The position numbers and the translations under genes were made by a program. Source: a virus. Taken from it: 22,185 nt of DNA. Position 1 is the first letter of the stretch. Each line of letters starts with the position of its first letter. The DNA lies in IMG/VR virus record IMGVR_UViG_3300046360_000173, positions 1 through 22,185 of that record. One strand, given 5' to 3'. The notes beneath the pieces are model-generated. The model worked only from the letters and a program-made list of their open reading frames with translations, was not told the DNA's origin and searched no databases. This document shows positions 7,962 to 19,821 of the stretch, one piece after another.

Positions 7962-9852
<1,891 letters not shown>

Positions 9853-11212: not shown

Positions 11213-11848
11213 ATGATTAATACAACAATAGGTAATTGGTTCATTATTGGCGAAGAATTAAATAGAATAAGAAAAAATGGTGTAAAACATTACAGATGTA
11301 TATGCACTTGCGGATTAGAATCAATAAAAACTAAATTTAGTATATATAAAACTAATGCATGTATTAAATGCTCAATCAATAAAAGATCAAAGCCTAATTT
11401 ACTACCAGGTCAAATTTTTGGTAAATGGACTATTGCAAAACTAGATGATTCTATAAAAAATAGTGAACGATATTATACATGTTTATGTTCTTGCGGAAAC
11501 AGCTCTTCAATAAGGGGATCAGTTCTTAGAGGAAATAAATCAAAAGAGTGTGAAACATGTAGAGTTTCAACCCATAAAATGTCCAGACATCCTTTATATA
11601 GAATTTGGAATGCTATGAATCAAAGGTGTTATAACCAAAATAATAAAGGTTATAAAAACTATGGTGGAAGAGGTATAAAGGTATGCGATTCATGGCATAC
11701 CTTTATAAACTTCTTCAATGATATGGGGCAAAAACCTGTAGGATTATCAATAGATCGTATCGATAATGACGGTAATTATGAACCTTCTAATTGTCGATGG
11801 GCAACTGCAAAAGAGCAGGCAAACAACCAAAGAAGACGTAAAAACTAA
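11213..11848 (+). CDS. Free-standing HNH homing endonuclease with two zinc ribbons
   Basis: 211 residues, the only convincing plus-strand gene. Two similar N-terminal modules follow the G.xxxWxI pattern: GNWFIIGE with Cys29/31/33 and Cys50/53, and GKWTIAKL with Cys90/92/94 and Cys113/116. The C-terminal nuclease contains HPLYRIW, YGGRGIKVCDSW, SIDRIDNDGNYEPSNCRWAT and KEQANNQRRRKN, the usual HNH arrangement in phage homing enzymes. It would nick or cut DNA to spread its own gene. Its stop overlaps the scaffold stop tail-to-tail by 3 nt. It has its own promoter and points against every neighbour, which suggests recent insertion. The ribosome site is weak. Confidence 0.9.
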   Translation: MINTTIGNWFIIGEELNRIRKNGVKHYRCICTCGLESIKTKFSIYKTNACIKCSINKRSKPNLLPGQIFGKWTIAKLDDSIKNSERYYTCLCSCGNSSSIRGSVLRGNKSKECETCRVSTHKMSRHPLYRIWNAMNQRCYNQNNKGYKNYGGRGIKVCDSWHTFINFFNDMGQKPVGLSIDRIDNDGNYEPSNCRWATAKEQANNQRRRKN

Positions 11849-16787: not shown

Positions 16788-17009
16788 TTATGTCCTATAA
16801 CTACACTGTGGATAAATCTTAGCTATTTTCATATGACACTTAATACATTTCTCTGGATGAGTTCCACGTAAATAGTTATTTCTAATGTCTGTCTTTGTTG
16901 TACCACATTCACATTGCACAATCACACCAAATGATCCTCGAACCTTTTTATCAAGCTCTTCTATGACCGTCCATTTACCGTACTTATTACCAAGTATAGA
17001 TATCATCAT
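16788..17009 (-). CDS. Stand-alone zinc-ribbon module, HNH-associated type
   Basis: 73 residues. It opens MMISILGNKYGKWTVIEEL, then VQCECGTTK and CIKC: Cys pairs in the order CxCxxC/G ... CxxC. The same module occurs twice in front of the nuclease in the plus-strand HNH enzyme (11213-11848), and again in the protein at 17384-17611. Here the reading frame ends right after the module with no nuclease domain. It might be a remnant of an endonuclease or a small DNA-binding regulator. AAGGA lies before the start, and the ligase-like gene precedes it by 4 nt. Confidence 0.75.
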   Translation of the reverse strand: MMISILGNKYGKWTVIEELDKKVRGSFGVIVQCECGTTKTDIRNNYLRGTHPEKCIKCHMKIAKIYPQCSYRT

Positions 17010-17013
17010 ATCC

Positions 17014-17382
17014 TTATTGCATAGTATAAAGTGATTCTATTTCTGAGAGAGTTGTCGCATGTTCAGGATTCTTATCCTGTCTTATTCTAATAAACTTAGG
17101 TTTTATGATAAAGAAAGGTGATCTCTTCGATTGTGATGCTTCTATACGATCATAAGAAACTTCCATTACAATCTTAGGATATACATAAAACTCACATGGA
17201 ATCATACAAACAATTCTATGATCTTTGATACTTGTTTTATGTATATATTGAGACATTGTATCATCTTTAAATGATTTTATGAGTCCAATAGAAATAAATT
17301 CATCTTGCTTATCATCATAACAAGCCAATATAAATCTATTATCTTCAAATCCAATGAATACTAAATCTAATGTATCCATCAT
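17014..17382 (-). CDS. Stand-alone OB-fold domain of an ATP-dependent DNA ligase
   Basis: 122 residues (121 if the second Met is used). The whole protein aligns by eye with the C-terminal OB domain of ATP-dependent ligases: LDLVFIGFED at the start (LDLVVIG in ligase I), RFILACYDDKQDEFISIG, KIVMEVSYDRIEAS, then PKFIRIRQDKNPEHATTLSE, where RQDK (101-104) is nucleotidyltransferase motif VI. The adenylation domain with the catalytic Lys is absent, and nothing like it precedes the gene, which begins 1 nt after a zinc-ribbon stop. Alone it cannot ligate. It could complement a separate adenylation subunit, bind nicked DNA, or be a relic. Confidence 0.8.
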   Translation of the reverse strand: MMDTLDLVFIGFEDNRFILACYDDKQDEFISIGLIKSFKDDTMSQYIHKTSIKDHRIVCMIPCEFYVYPKIVMEVSYDRIEASQSKRSPFFIIKPKFIRIRQDKNPEHATTLSEIESLYTMQ

Positions 17383-17383
17383 T

Positions 17384-17611
17384 TTATTCTAAAACTCTCG
17401 GAAATATTGAAAACATCTTATGTATCTTACGAGCACATTTAGAACATTTATCAGGTGGATTAGTTTTTATAAAGAAATATTTAGCCATGATACGTATAGT
17501 TCCACACCTACACTGACATGTAACAATATCACGTCCATGCTTTCTTTTACCACTATCATCAATAATGGTCCATACTCCAAACTTCTCTCCAGTAATATTC
17601 CTAGGTTCCAT
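17384..17611 (-). CDS. Stand-alone zinc-ribbon module, HNH-associated type
   Basis: 75 residues. EKFGVWTIIDD (9-19) followed by VTCQCRCGT and DKCSKCARK gives the same GxWTI plus CxCxC...CxxC pattern as the N-terminal modules of the plus-strand HNH enzyme and as the protein at 16788-17009. No nuclease domain follows. Its ATG overlaps the terminase stop by one base (TAATG), so it is translated together with the intein-bearing terminase. The likely activity is DNA binding (family knowledge of these zinc ribbons); the biological role is unknown. Confidence 0.75.
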   Translation of the reverse strand: MEPRNITGEKFGVWTIIDDSGKRKHGRDIVTCQCRCGTIRIMAKYFFIKTNPPDKCSKCARKIHKMFSIFPRVLE

Positions 17612-19821
17612 TAGTAAATCCTATGATTATCGTTAAAGAATCCTTGCCCTATTCCTAATCCATCACTCCCATAACCCTGTGCTTGGCGATAACGTTTCTC
17701 AATGTCCTCTGCCGTTGATTGTTCATCACGGGATCGACTTAAAGATAAAACAAGATACCTAAAAGCATCTGCATAATGAGAGTTGTGAACTATGGCACCA
17801 TTCGCTAACGAAAAATGATGCGCATCCTCAACTTCAATATCATAAACATTCTGCTTTTCGTTTAGCAATCTTACCGATTCTATAATGAGTGGCTTTGCAG
17901 TTGGTATGGCAGAATTTTTGACTATGCGGCCCTTTATTAACCAATCCTTCAAATATTCTTCCACACTGAAGACATTCCATTGGAATTCGTTCTCGCTTCT
18001 CCCATGATTTGCATCTAACCGCTTGATTAGAATGCCATTTTCTTCCTTCTTCAGAACTATGCCATTCTGCAGTCTTATCCCTTGCAAGCTTAGACAATCC
18101 CTTTCCATTAGGTCTAGGATGCTTAAGATGTTCAAACCTTGGTAAACATTCCAAGTTATCAAGTCTATTGTTTTTTGGATCATTGTCCTTGTGGTGTATA
18201 TCACATTCTGGTGGAATTGTACCGAAAGCAGACTTCCAGACATCTCTATGTAATCTTGATCCGCCCCTAGAGAAATACTTTTCATTGGGCCATATTTTAT
18301 ACAATGATCCTGAGAAGTATGTTGTGACTGTATCGACGAGGATTGGATCACTGTATTCTTTGTTAGGGATTCTGCTGATTTCCAACCGTTTTCCGTTAGA
18401 AATAAATGCTCCGGCGTACATTTCACTTTCGTACCGTCTTGGAATGTTACTTCCACAAGATCCGCATTTTCCTTCGACATCCATGATGCTTTGCATTTCT
18501 TCCACCCTTTTAATGTTAATAATTCATCACCTATATTAACATCCATAATACGACGCATTCCGGTACGCGTCAACAAAAGAGTATCTCCAACAAAGCAGTT
18601 ATTATCATGCAGCGGTTTCTCTCTATAAACTTTGCGCTTTTCATCAAACTCTTGTCGATAATTCTCAAGAGCTCTAATTAATGGTTTGCAACGCTCTTCA
18701 TCAAACCACATCTTTGGTAAAGCAGATCGAACTGCTTCGATACCATCTTCAATTGATAACATAGGAAGAGCAGATTTAGTTCCTGCTTCACGAGTTTCAA
18801 ACTTTAAACCTAACTGCTTTGCTTTCTCTAAACGAGTCAATCCTGATCCAAATTCTTTAACAGCAATATCATGAGGAGCCCAATGCTTATCGTACTGATA
18901 AGGCTTATCCATAACAATATTAACATAGTGCTCTAATCCTTCTTTGTTCTTCTCATAACAATCAATGATATGAACAACTTGTCCTATAATCTGAAAGAAT
19001 ATTATACACGTAGAATCTCGAACACCGATATCAAAAGCTGTTGAAACTCTAAATTGTGGTTCCCATCTGACTTTTCCAATCTGGCCATTAAGTCTTAACT
19101 TATCAATATATTTAGCATAATAAGAACCTTCAGCTCCTTGATCAAAGGAACAATAATATTCTTGTTGTACTAAATCAGGACTTACAAGACCATCATCAAT
19201 ATCTTGTTGAATCATTTCGATGGGAATATGTTTTGTATCTGCAAGGCTTAACTTTTGGCAAAACCATTCAGATGAATATTGAGAAATATTATACATATTC
19301 CAAAACTCATTCTTACCTCGAGGAGTTGAAACTATAATAACAGAGCCACCATTAGCATTAATAATAGGCATAACAAACTTAAAAGCATCGGGATCTGCAA
19401 GCGCAAACTCAGAAAAAACTAACATACGAGGATTAGTACCAACAAGAGAGGTATCATATGAATCAGATCCAATAATTTGAATAATAGATCCATTAACAAG
19501 TGTTATCTTCAACTCTTGAGAATTCGTTGCTTTAACAAGCTCTGGTGGTATAAAGTCTATGAAACGCATCCCATCGTTCGTAATAGAATCCCAAATAACT
19601 TTACGACCTTGTGAGAATGTAGGAAGAGCATACATATAGACGCCAACTTTTCTAACTGCTTGTCGTATCATAAGATTCCAACAAACAATGTCTTTGCCTG
19701 ACCTTCGACCCCATACAAGCAGCATTTTCTTAAAGCCTCTATTCTCAAAGGCGTCACAAGCAGCTAATTGATATGGTCGAGGTTGAAACTTATCGAGATG
19801 AATCTCCGTCATTATACTCAT
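17611..19821 (-). CDS. terL: Terminase large subunit with an intein
   Basis: 736 residues as a precursor; about 464 after removal of the intein (residues 409-680). TerL pumps DNA into the head and cuts it. ATPase: Walker A WGRRSGKD (37-44), Walker B MLVFSE (133-138), coupling motif VSTPRGK (164-170). Nuclease: FDIG with Asp264, HDIA with Asp318, and HYADAF with Asp685, the last just after the intein. GGGAG lies 5 nt before the ATG. The start overlaps the preceding small gene by 32 nt. Until spliced, the third nuclease motif is separated from the rest, so the precursor should be inactive as a nuclease. Confidence 0.95.
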   Translation of the reverse strand: MSIMTEIHLDKFQPRPYQLAACDAFENRGFKKMLLVWGRRSGKDIVCWNLMIRQAVRKVGVYMYALPTFSQGRKVIWDSITNDGMRFIDFIPPELVKATNSQELKITLVNGSIIQIIGSDSYDTSLVGTNPRMLVFSEFALADPDAFKFVMPIINANGGSVIIVSTPRGKNEFWNMYNISQYSSEWFCQKLSLADTKHIPIEMIQQDIDDGLVSPDLVQQEYYCSFDQGAEGSYYAKYIDKLRLNGQIGKVRWEPQFRVSTAFDIGVRDSTCIIFFQIIGQVVHIIDCYEKNKEGLEHYVNIVMDKPYQYDKHWAPHDIAVKEFGSGLTRLEKAKQLGLKFETREAGTKSALPMLSIEDGIEAVRSALPKMWFDEERCKPLIRALENYRQEFDEKRKVYREKPLHDNNCFVGDTLLLTRTGMRRIMDVNIGDELLTLKGWKKCKASWMSKENADLVEVTFQDGTKVKCTPEHLFLTENGWKSAESLTKNTVIQSSSIQSQHTSQDHCIKYGPMKSISLGADQDYIEMSGSLLSVQFHQNVIYTTRTMIQKTIDLITWNVYQGLNILSILDLMERDCLSLQGIRLQNGIVLKKEENGILIKRLDANHGRSENEFQWNVFSVEEYLKDWLIKGRIVKNSAIPTAKPLIIESVRLLNEKQNVYDIEVEDAHHFSLANGAIVHNSHYADAFRYLVLSLSRSRDEQSTAEDIEKRYRQAQGYGSDGLGIGQGFFNDNHRIY
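17782..18597 (-). mobile_element. Intein in TerL with an endonuclease gene in another frame
   Basis: 272 residues between Asn408 and Ser681 of the precursor. Block A starts at Cys409 (CFVGDTLLLTRTG). Block B is GTKVKCTPEHLFLT with Thr and His in place. Block F is NVYDIEVEDAHHFSL. Block G is AIVHN, followed by Ser as the +1 residue. All splicing residues are present. The central ~150 residues match no endonuclease in this frame; the DNA there encodes an HNH enzyme in another frame. The insertion point, just before the third nuclease motif of TerL, is a highly conserved site, typical for inteins. Confidence 0.93.
17840..18496 (-). CDS. HNH homing endonuclease nested out of frame inside the intein
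   Basis: 218 residues from the ATG at 18496, which has AAAAGGG 8 nt upstream; a GTG at 18505 is also possible. Its codons are shifted by 2 nt relative to TerL. The convincing part starts near residue 57: SLYKIWPNEKYFSRGG, LHRDVW (His83), CDIHHKDNDPKNN with His101/His102 and Asn109/110, DNLECL. A C-terminal zinc finger has Cys175, Cys178, Cys196, Cys200. The first ~55 residues overlap intein block B and may only be a by-product of that constraint. The enzyme would cut intein-free terL genes and drive intein spread. Separate translation is inferred from the ribosome site. Confidence 0.88.
   Translation of the reverse strand: MQSIMDVEGKCGSCGSNIPRRYESEMYAGAFISNGKRLEISRIPNKEYSDPILVDTVTTYFSGSLYKIWPNEKYFSRGGSRLHRDVWKSAFGTIPPECDIHHKDNDPKNNRLDNLECLPRFEHLKHPRPNGKGLSKLARDKTAEWHSSEEGRKWHSNQAVRCKSWEKRERIPMECLQCGRIFEGLVNKGPHSQKFCHTNCKATHYRIGKIAKRKAECL

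Follow-up and report, generated by a model that had tools for sequence, protein, structure and literature searches.

What is one to make of an intein whose endonuclease is not in its own reading frame? By definition, a full-length intein carries its nuclease in the same reading frame as the splicing domain, as one fused protein. In the window, by which we mean the whole stretch of 22,185 nucleotides of viral DNA that was analyzed, the gene for the large terminase (TerL) holds an intein, and the same DNA, read in another frame, holds a gene for an HNH endonuclease. Several questions follow. Are both of them real? On which of the two frames does selection act, and where? Is the layout found in relatives? 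And how would such an element be expressed, and how would it move?

We start with the intein. TerL is a single uninterrupted ORF of 736 amino acids on the minus strand (17611-19821), the strand on which all the TerL and HNH features given below are found. The N-extein (18598-19821, 408 amino acids) includes the ATPase domain and most of the nuclease domain; the intein (17782-18597) has 272 residues, from Cys1 at 18597 to Asn272 at 17782; and the C-extein (17611-17781) starts with Ser+1 followed by HYADAFRY. TerL relatives that are 75-91% identical in the N-extein have no intein, and in them the site is uninterrupted, as in HDNN/SHYADAFRY, or as in HDNSSHFADAFRY and HDLNSHYADAFRY (loci L209 and L211, respectively). 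TerL matches the Pfam model Intein_splicing (PF14890) with an E-value of 1.4e-13, above the gathering score, as well as the NCBIfam models for the N- and C-terminal ends of inteins (TIGR01445 and TIGR01443). All the residues needed for splicing are present: Cys1, T61 and H64 in block B (TPEH, in the VKCTPEHLFLTENG region at 18385-18435), H271-N272, and Ser+1. In eight aligned relatives Cys1, T61, H64 and H271-N272 are invariant, and the +1 residue varies, being either Ser or Cys. Blocks F and G (NVYDIEVEDAHHFSLANGAIVHN, 17782-17853) are supported by the Pfam and NCBIfam matches, by the alignment, and by a pLDDT above 80. The AF2 model of the intein resembles solved mini-inteins such as gp41-1 and DnaB (best Foldseek E-value 2.9e-7). 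Thus, the claim of the first-pass annotation that TerL carries a complete intein is borne out, and we find both a Hint fold and a precise insertion into a conserved host protein that is absent from homologues. The two halves of this intein are part of one ORF, not of the separate ORFs of a split intein. A group I or group II intron with an HNH ORF is ruled out, since there is no Rfam match to an intron RNA in the window and the TerL frame is uninterrupted.

The second gene is the ORF at 18505-17840, offset by 2 nucleotides from TerL, that is, in the -1 frame. It matches HNH_3 (PF13392) with an E-value of 4.6e-14, and the HNH endonuclease family phrog_15471 with an E-value of 1.2e-24. Its AF2 model has a mean pLDDT of 84.5; the closest fold match is I-HmuI, with a weak E-value of 0.037, and a profile search returned no PDB match. 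The HNH_3 core (LHRDVW ... DIHHKDNDPKNNRLDNLE, at 18128-18256) has H and N residues that are invariant in 18 relatives. A C-terminal zinc ribbon (17891-17977) is indicated by a weak, sub-threshold Pfam match and by four invariant Cys residues. Ahead of the core there is an N-terminal extension of about 54 amino acids (18334-18496) that lies over block B of the intein. This extension is missing from the free-standing relatives that we aligned, and no true relative was found when it was used as a query against genome contigs. A Shine-Dalgarno-like AAAAGGG is found at 18505-18511, just upstream of the ATG at 18496, and for that reason this ATG is likely to be the start of the gene (17840-18496, 218 amino acids) in preference to the upstream GTG at 18505. 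An out-of-frame HNH gene with a ribosome site of its own, as had been proposed, is therefore what these matches and this site support, and it is likely that one locus gives two products, as was also expected then.

Is the arrangement conserved? Querying viral contigs with the intein gave 17 loci, most of which hold both an intein (40-45% identity) and an HNH protein (46-56% identity), and the shift in frame of the latter never varies. Broader searches from alignments of the HNH protein and of the intein extended the collection to 205 loci, which are the best 80 per search and not an unbiased census. Within this collection of the best 80 per search, the HNH gene overlaps the intein ORF in the same relative frame in 191 of the 205 loci, and in none of them is it in frame. 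Reduced to 106 distinct loci at less than 90% nucleotide identity (again from the best 80 per search), the frame offset is 2 in all of them, the full-length intein lies within a single ORF in 99, and in not one do the endonuclease and the splicing domain share a frame as they do in a canonical intein. The search for homologues had been suggested as a check on whether the out-of-frame layout is conserved, and it is; a TerL frame that was always closed in homologues had been named as evidence against it, and the TerL frame is always open in the relatives. Named members are Tetrasphaera phage TJE1, Acinetobacter phage Highwayman, and Rhodobacteraceae phage LS06-2018-MD07, to which an unannotated gut phage is added. 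For TJE1 and Highwayman the records annotate the large terminase only. Two other TerL inteins (L261 and L264), which belong to a more divergent type, likewise have an out-of-frame HNH gene. The nesting of an out-of-frame HNH gene in a TerL intein defines a conserved and widespread family.

Given such a family, we can ask which frame is selected where by looking at the codon positions at which related elements differ. Where the intein alone is coding, past the HNH stop, its wobble positions differ in 0.575 of the codons. Where the HNH extension overlaps block B, this value falls to 0.175-0.216, and the first two positions stay low. The drop is significant (Fisher p 1e-19 and 5e-15, in tests that use disjoint pairs of elements that are not fully independent). 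Since intein wobble divergence falls there with the other positions also low, both frames are constrained, and the overlap of block B with the HNH N-terminal extension is a case of true dual coding.

The HNH core shows a different pattern. The TerL-frame linker that runs under it (intein residues 89-234, at 17896-18333) has its differences concentrated at the HNH wobble position, which is position 2 of the intein codons (0.40 vs. 0.14 and 0.08), so that only the HNH protein is constrained over this region. AF2 gives pLDDT values above 80 for the ends of the intein and below 50 throughout the 146 residues of the linker, which is thus predicted to be unstructured. That the TerL-frame linker holds a second, conserved protein domain is rejected on these two grounds, the low AF2 confidence and the substitutions at intein position 2. 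And yet the frame stays open. When the HNH codons of the window are reshuffled synonymously, the TerL frame acquires a mean of 2.6 stops, and only 1.7% of the shuffles are free of them. In 95 relatives we observe no stops at all in the linkers, versus 1.64 expected per element by the same synonymous reshuffling, and a TerL frame that is open by chance is rejected. Because only the HNH protein is constrained over its core, the TerL frame is there a passenger that avoids stops, kept merely stop-free. Thus, the first-pass annotation was right that the TerL frame is open beyond chance. Its proposal of selection on both frames is right at the protein level only where block B and the HNH N-terminal extension overlap; across the HNH core, selection on the TerL frame does no more than keep stops out of it.

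Our preferred reading, which we hold with good confidence, is that this is a mobile intein in which the homing endonuclease is a separate gene, overprinted on the splicing domain in the -1 frame, not fused to it. We infer the splicing, the separate HNH translation, the cleavage target and the homing as follows. Ribosomes starting at the TerL ATG would read all 736 codons, and the Hint domain (blocks A, B, F, and G) would excise itself and join the two halves of TerL. Ribosomes starting on the same mRNA at the internal site between blocks A and B would translate the other frame into a free HNH protein. The HNH protein probably cuts intein-less terL genes near HDxxSHxADA, and repair would then copy the intein, with its hidden nuclease, into the cut allele (homing). 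By analogy with I-HmuI, an HNH enzyme is usually a nickase or a single-strand-biased enzyme.

Does the nuclease home at all? The HNH protein could instead be a terminase-associated packaging nuclease that is not, or is no longer, a homing enzyme, with the packaging function maintaining the overlap. Free-standing HNH relatives do adjoin terminase genes (terS or terL) in several phages, and HNH proteins that adjoin terminases are known to aid packaging (cited in PMC11855218). Against this explanation, which we judge unlikely, close TerL relatives are entirely without the element. Moreover, as expected of a mobile element, HNH and TerL diverge almost independently, their identities being nearly uncorrelated (rho 0.10, partly from saturation at high divergence). 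A tree also interleaves nested and free HNH copies: nested L003 groups with free L007 (95/89), and nested L203 with free L204 (94/77). Among the 99 full-length elements, the position of the intein varies over several neighboring sites within HDWSSHxADA, and it always precedes a Ser or a Cys where the junction is readable.

At one locus (L022, 3741-6120), TerL and its intein are divided between two ORFs that flank the HNH gene. An in-frame HNH intein was considered for this locus and rejected, since the TerL frame ends ahead of the HNH gene and is taken up again in a different one, as in the split-intein or fractured-gene form. The split may come from a sequencing error. Taking the interleaving of nested and free copies together with the split in L022 and the free copies beside terminases, nesting has probably been gained or lost repeatedly.

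The window has other genes of related kinds. Two short ORFs on the minus strand downstream of terL (16788-17009 and 17384-17611) match only the middle of the phrog_374 HNH endonuclease, and are probably a DNA-binding module without the nuclease part. Between these two fragments sits an ORF of 122 amino acids (17014-17382, minus strand) that matches the C-terminal domain of ATP-dependent DNA ligase (3.9e-07) and has no catalytic domain. A phrog_374 HNH endonuclease (9.8e-59) is found at 11213-11848 on the plus strand, opposite to its neighbors, and is likely a free-standing homing gene. Among the structural genes there is a phage-encoded GroEL (Cpn60, 5.8e-76) at 7962-9852 on the minus strand, and the small ORF before it has a sequence resembling GroES.

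How the nuclease would be made is a separate question, for which the main rival to internal initiation is programmed frameshifting. Under this alternative, ribosomes would slip from the TerL frame and produce a fusion of the extein, the N-terminal part of the intein, and HNH. The HNH gene is in the -1 frame across the TerL family, which is the commonest direction of programmed frameshifts, and the two frames do overlap for a stretch ahead of the HNH core. Between the last upstream stop in the HNH frame and the ATG at 18496, though, the TerL frame of the window shows no slippery X XXY YYZ heptamer. What is conserved instead is a start codon and a ribosome site, with an internal site equivalent to that of the window present between blocks A and B in most elements. 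An ATG or GTG is found at intein nucleotide 86 in 64 of the 99 full-length elements, usually with GAGGT or GGAGGT 9 nucleotides ahead of it, and 23 of the 99, the window included, start at nucleotide 101 behind a site such as AAGG. In some elements the proposed start is not preceded by a clear ribosome site. In the intein frame, the nucleotide-86 site reads as part of a conserved motif, G-E-V-L-T, and its Glu codon is GAG in 52 elements and GAA in 4, whereas the other Glu codons of the same inteins divide 368:314 (p 1.4e-9). Because GAG is so strongly favored there, we take the bias to mean that ribosome binding is selected for at a synonymous site. Frameshifting also has to face the second class of elements described below, which uses the +1 frame, and we regard it as an improbable source of the nuclease.

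It is less probable still that the intein is dead or splices poorly, the insertion persisting because TerL tolerates it. Such a persistence has been proposed for the ShiLan insertions, which are thought to stay in the protein (PMC11855218). In the TerL family the splicing residues (Cys1, TxxH, HN, and the following S or C) are conserved, and an excess of wobble substitutions shows purifying selection on blocks F and G; an unspliced insert of 272 residues in a conserved TerL motif would, we expect, be harmful.

Finally, assembly or sequencing indels that split an ordinary in-frame HNH intein, a scenario with nothing in its favor beyond the frame difference itself, have next to no chance of being the explanation and can be excluded, as the same offset recurs in over 100 distinct contigs (106 distinct loci from the best 80 per search) and in isolates such as TJE1 and Highwayman, and the compensating indels that had been named as contrary evidence would have put in frame a nuclease that is never in frame among relatives.

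Is this layout restricted to terminases and HNH nucleases? A clamp-loader gene (L021) has an intein with a hidden ORF in the +1 frame, which is a DUF559 nuclease (1.8e-14). The layout recurs in helicases of Vibrio phages, where the annotation reads "coil containing protein" or "putative helicase". A search with three DUF559 nucleases, pooled with those three, gave 83 loci. Requiring an open host ORF, 79 of the 83 are nested in the +1 frame; the other 4 failed that requirement. There are 67 distinct nested loci, most of them located between the DE and the CH of the Walker B motif, and their hosts are helicases, SNF2-type proteins, and clamp loaders (L021, L206, L207, and L288-L367). Ten of the host proteins were tested, which confirmed the intein domain in 9 and the nuclease in all 10. 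Host-frame stops over the DUF559 nucleases number 0, versus 11.4 expected for each, and the wobble divergence of the nuclease is again the highest. One member (L329, 1280-5245) is a SNF2-type helicase ORF of 1322 amino acids with an in-frame LAGLIDADG match upstream, at residues 403-468, and a separate intein that hides the out-of-frame DUF559 nuclease.

The nuclease, the frame shift, and the host genes of this class all differ from those of the TerL/HNH class, which indicates an independent origin, and that the architecture arose at least twice. We lean toward a more general statement, somewhat beyond an even chance in our estimation: that overprinted inteins may be a general architecture of viral mobile elements, in which one stretch of DNA encodes in two frames a cis-splicing intein and a homing endonuclease that is translated apart from it, starting from a ribosome site inside a conserved intein motif. 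It would have arisen at least twice, as HNH in the -1 frame of TerL, and as DUF559 or EDxHD-like nucleases in the +1 frame at the Walker B motif of helicases and clamp loaders, and would exchange with free-standing and split forms.

What would be gained by such an arrangement? An overprinted nuclease separates the splicing and the cutting activities, and the expression of each can be regulated apart. Overprinting also ties the evolution of the two together: a change that mutates the nuclease can disable the host protein as well, and vice versa, from which it follows that the usual decay of homing endonucleases would slow. For annotation, the consequence is that surveys of inteins that look at the host frame only will class these elements as having no recognizable nuclease. 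Annotators do miss it: several records annotate the host gene only, and the nuclease is unannotated in L002, L003, and L206. One nuclease family is found nested, split, and standing free, and this makes it a direct test case for the origin of overlapping genes as well.

The first-pass annotation knew of no well-described system of this kind, and that claim does not stand, as there are two precedents. A brucellaphage paper of 2015 (PMC4422536) reports an HNH ORF that overlaps the middle of terL out of frame and calls it "putative intein-encoded"; this is a remark in a paper on SNPs, without intein blocks or comparative analysis, and our comparison with it is by description. Arsenault et al. 2025 (PMC11855218) describe the ShiLan domain, or Pacc40 insertion, with an out-of-frame HNH in phage DNA methylases. 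The authors state that the ShiLan element lacks both a splicing domain and any detectable ribosome site, and they suggest leaderless translation. The likeness to our element is in an HNH gene in another frame of an insertion that is open in the frame of the host gene, in a disjunct distribution that suggests homing, and in free-standing relatives beside the same gene in other phages. The TerL element differs in having a complete intein, a conserved internal ribosome site, a dual-coding block B, and another host gene. The window thus has the out-of-frame HNH of a ShiLan-type insertion together with the splicing domain that ShiLan lacks. A third report, Gosselin et al. 2025 (bioRxiv 2025.01.02.630785, cited in PMC11855218), is on actinobacteriophage inteins with a "non-canonical architecture"; to judge by its title and the context of its citation, overlapping frames in such inteins may be among the things it describes. 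A hidden out-of-frame HNH is, as an idea, already published. In the open-licence literature we have found no description of a complete intein with a nuclease overprinted on it, of the internal ribosome site, of dual coding in block B, of how far the family extends, or of the second class.

Two better-known arrangements complete the comparison. Fractured genes, in which a homing endonuclease gene stands between the parts of a split intein (Dassa et al. 2009, as cited in PMC12350094), are alike, by that citing account, in having a free nuclease gene between the intein halves, and their EDxHD or Vsr-like nuclease may correspond to the DUF559 nuclease found here. They differ in that the intein of the window is contiguous and predicted to splice in cis; in the TerL family, only L022 is split with its HNH gene. 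With canonical full-length inteins, the element shares a Hint splicing domain, a nuclease coded between blocks B and F, and mobility. The difference is that the nuclease here has its own ORF, which is in another frame and starts upstream of block B, and for that reason it would not be released as part of the intein.
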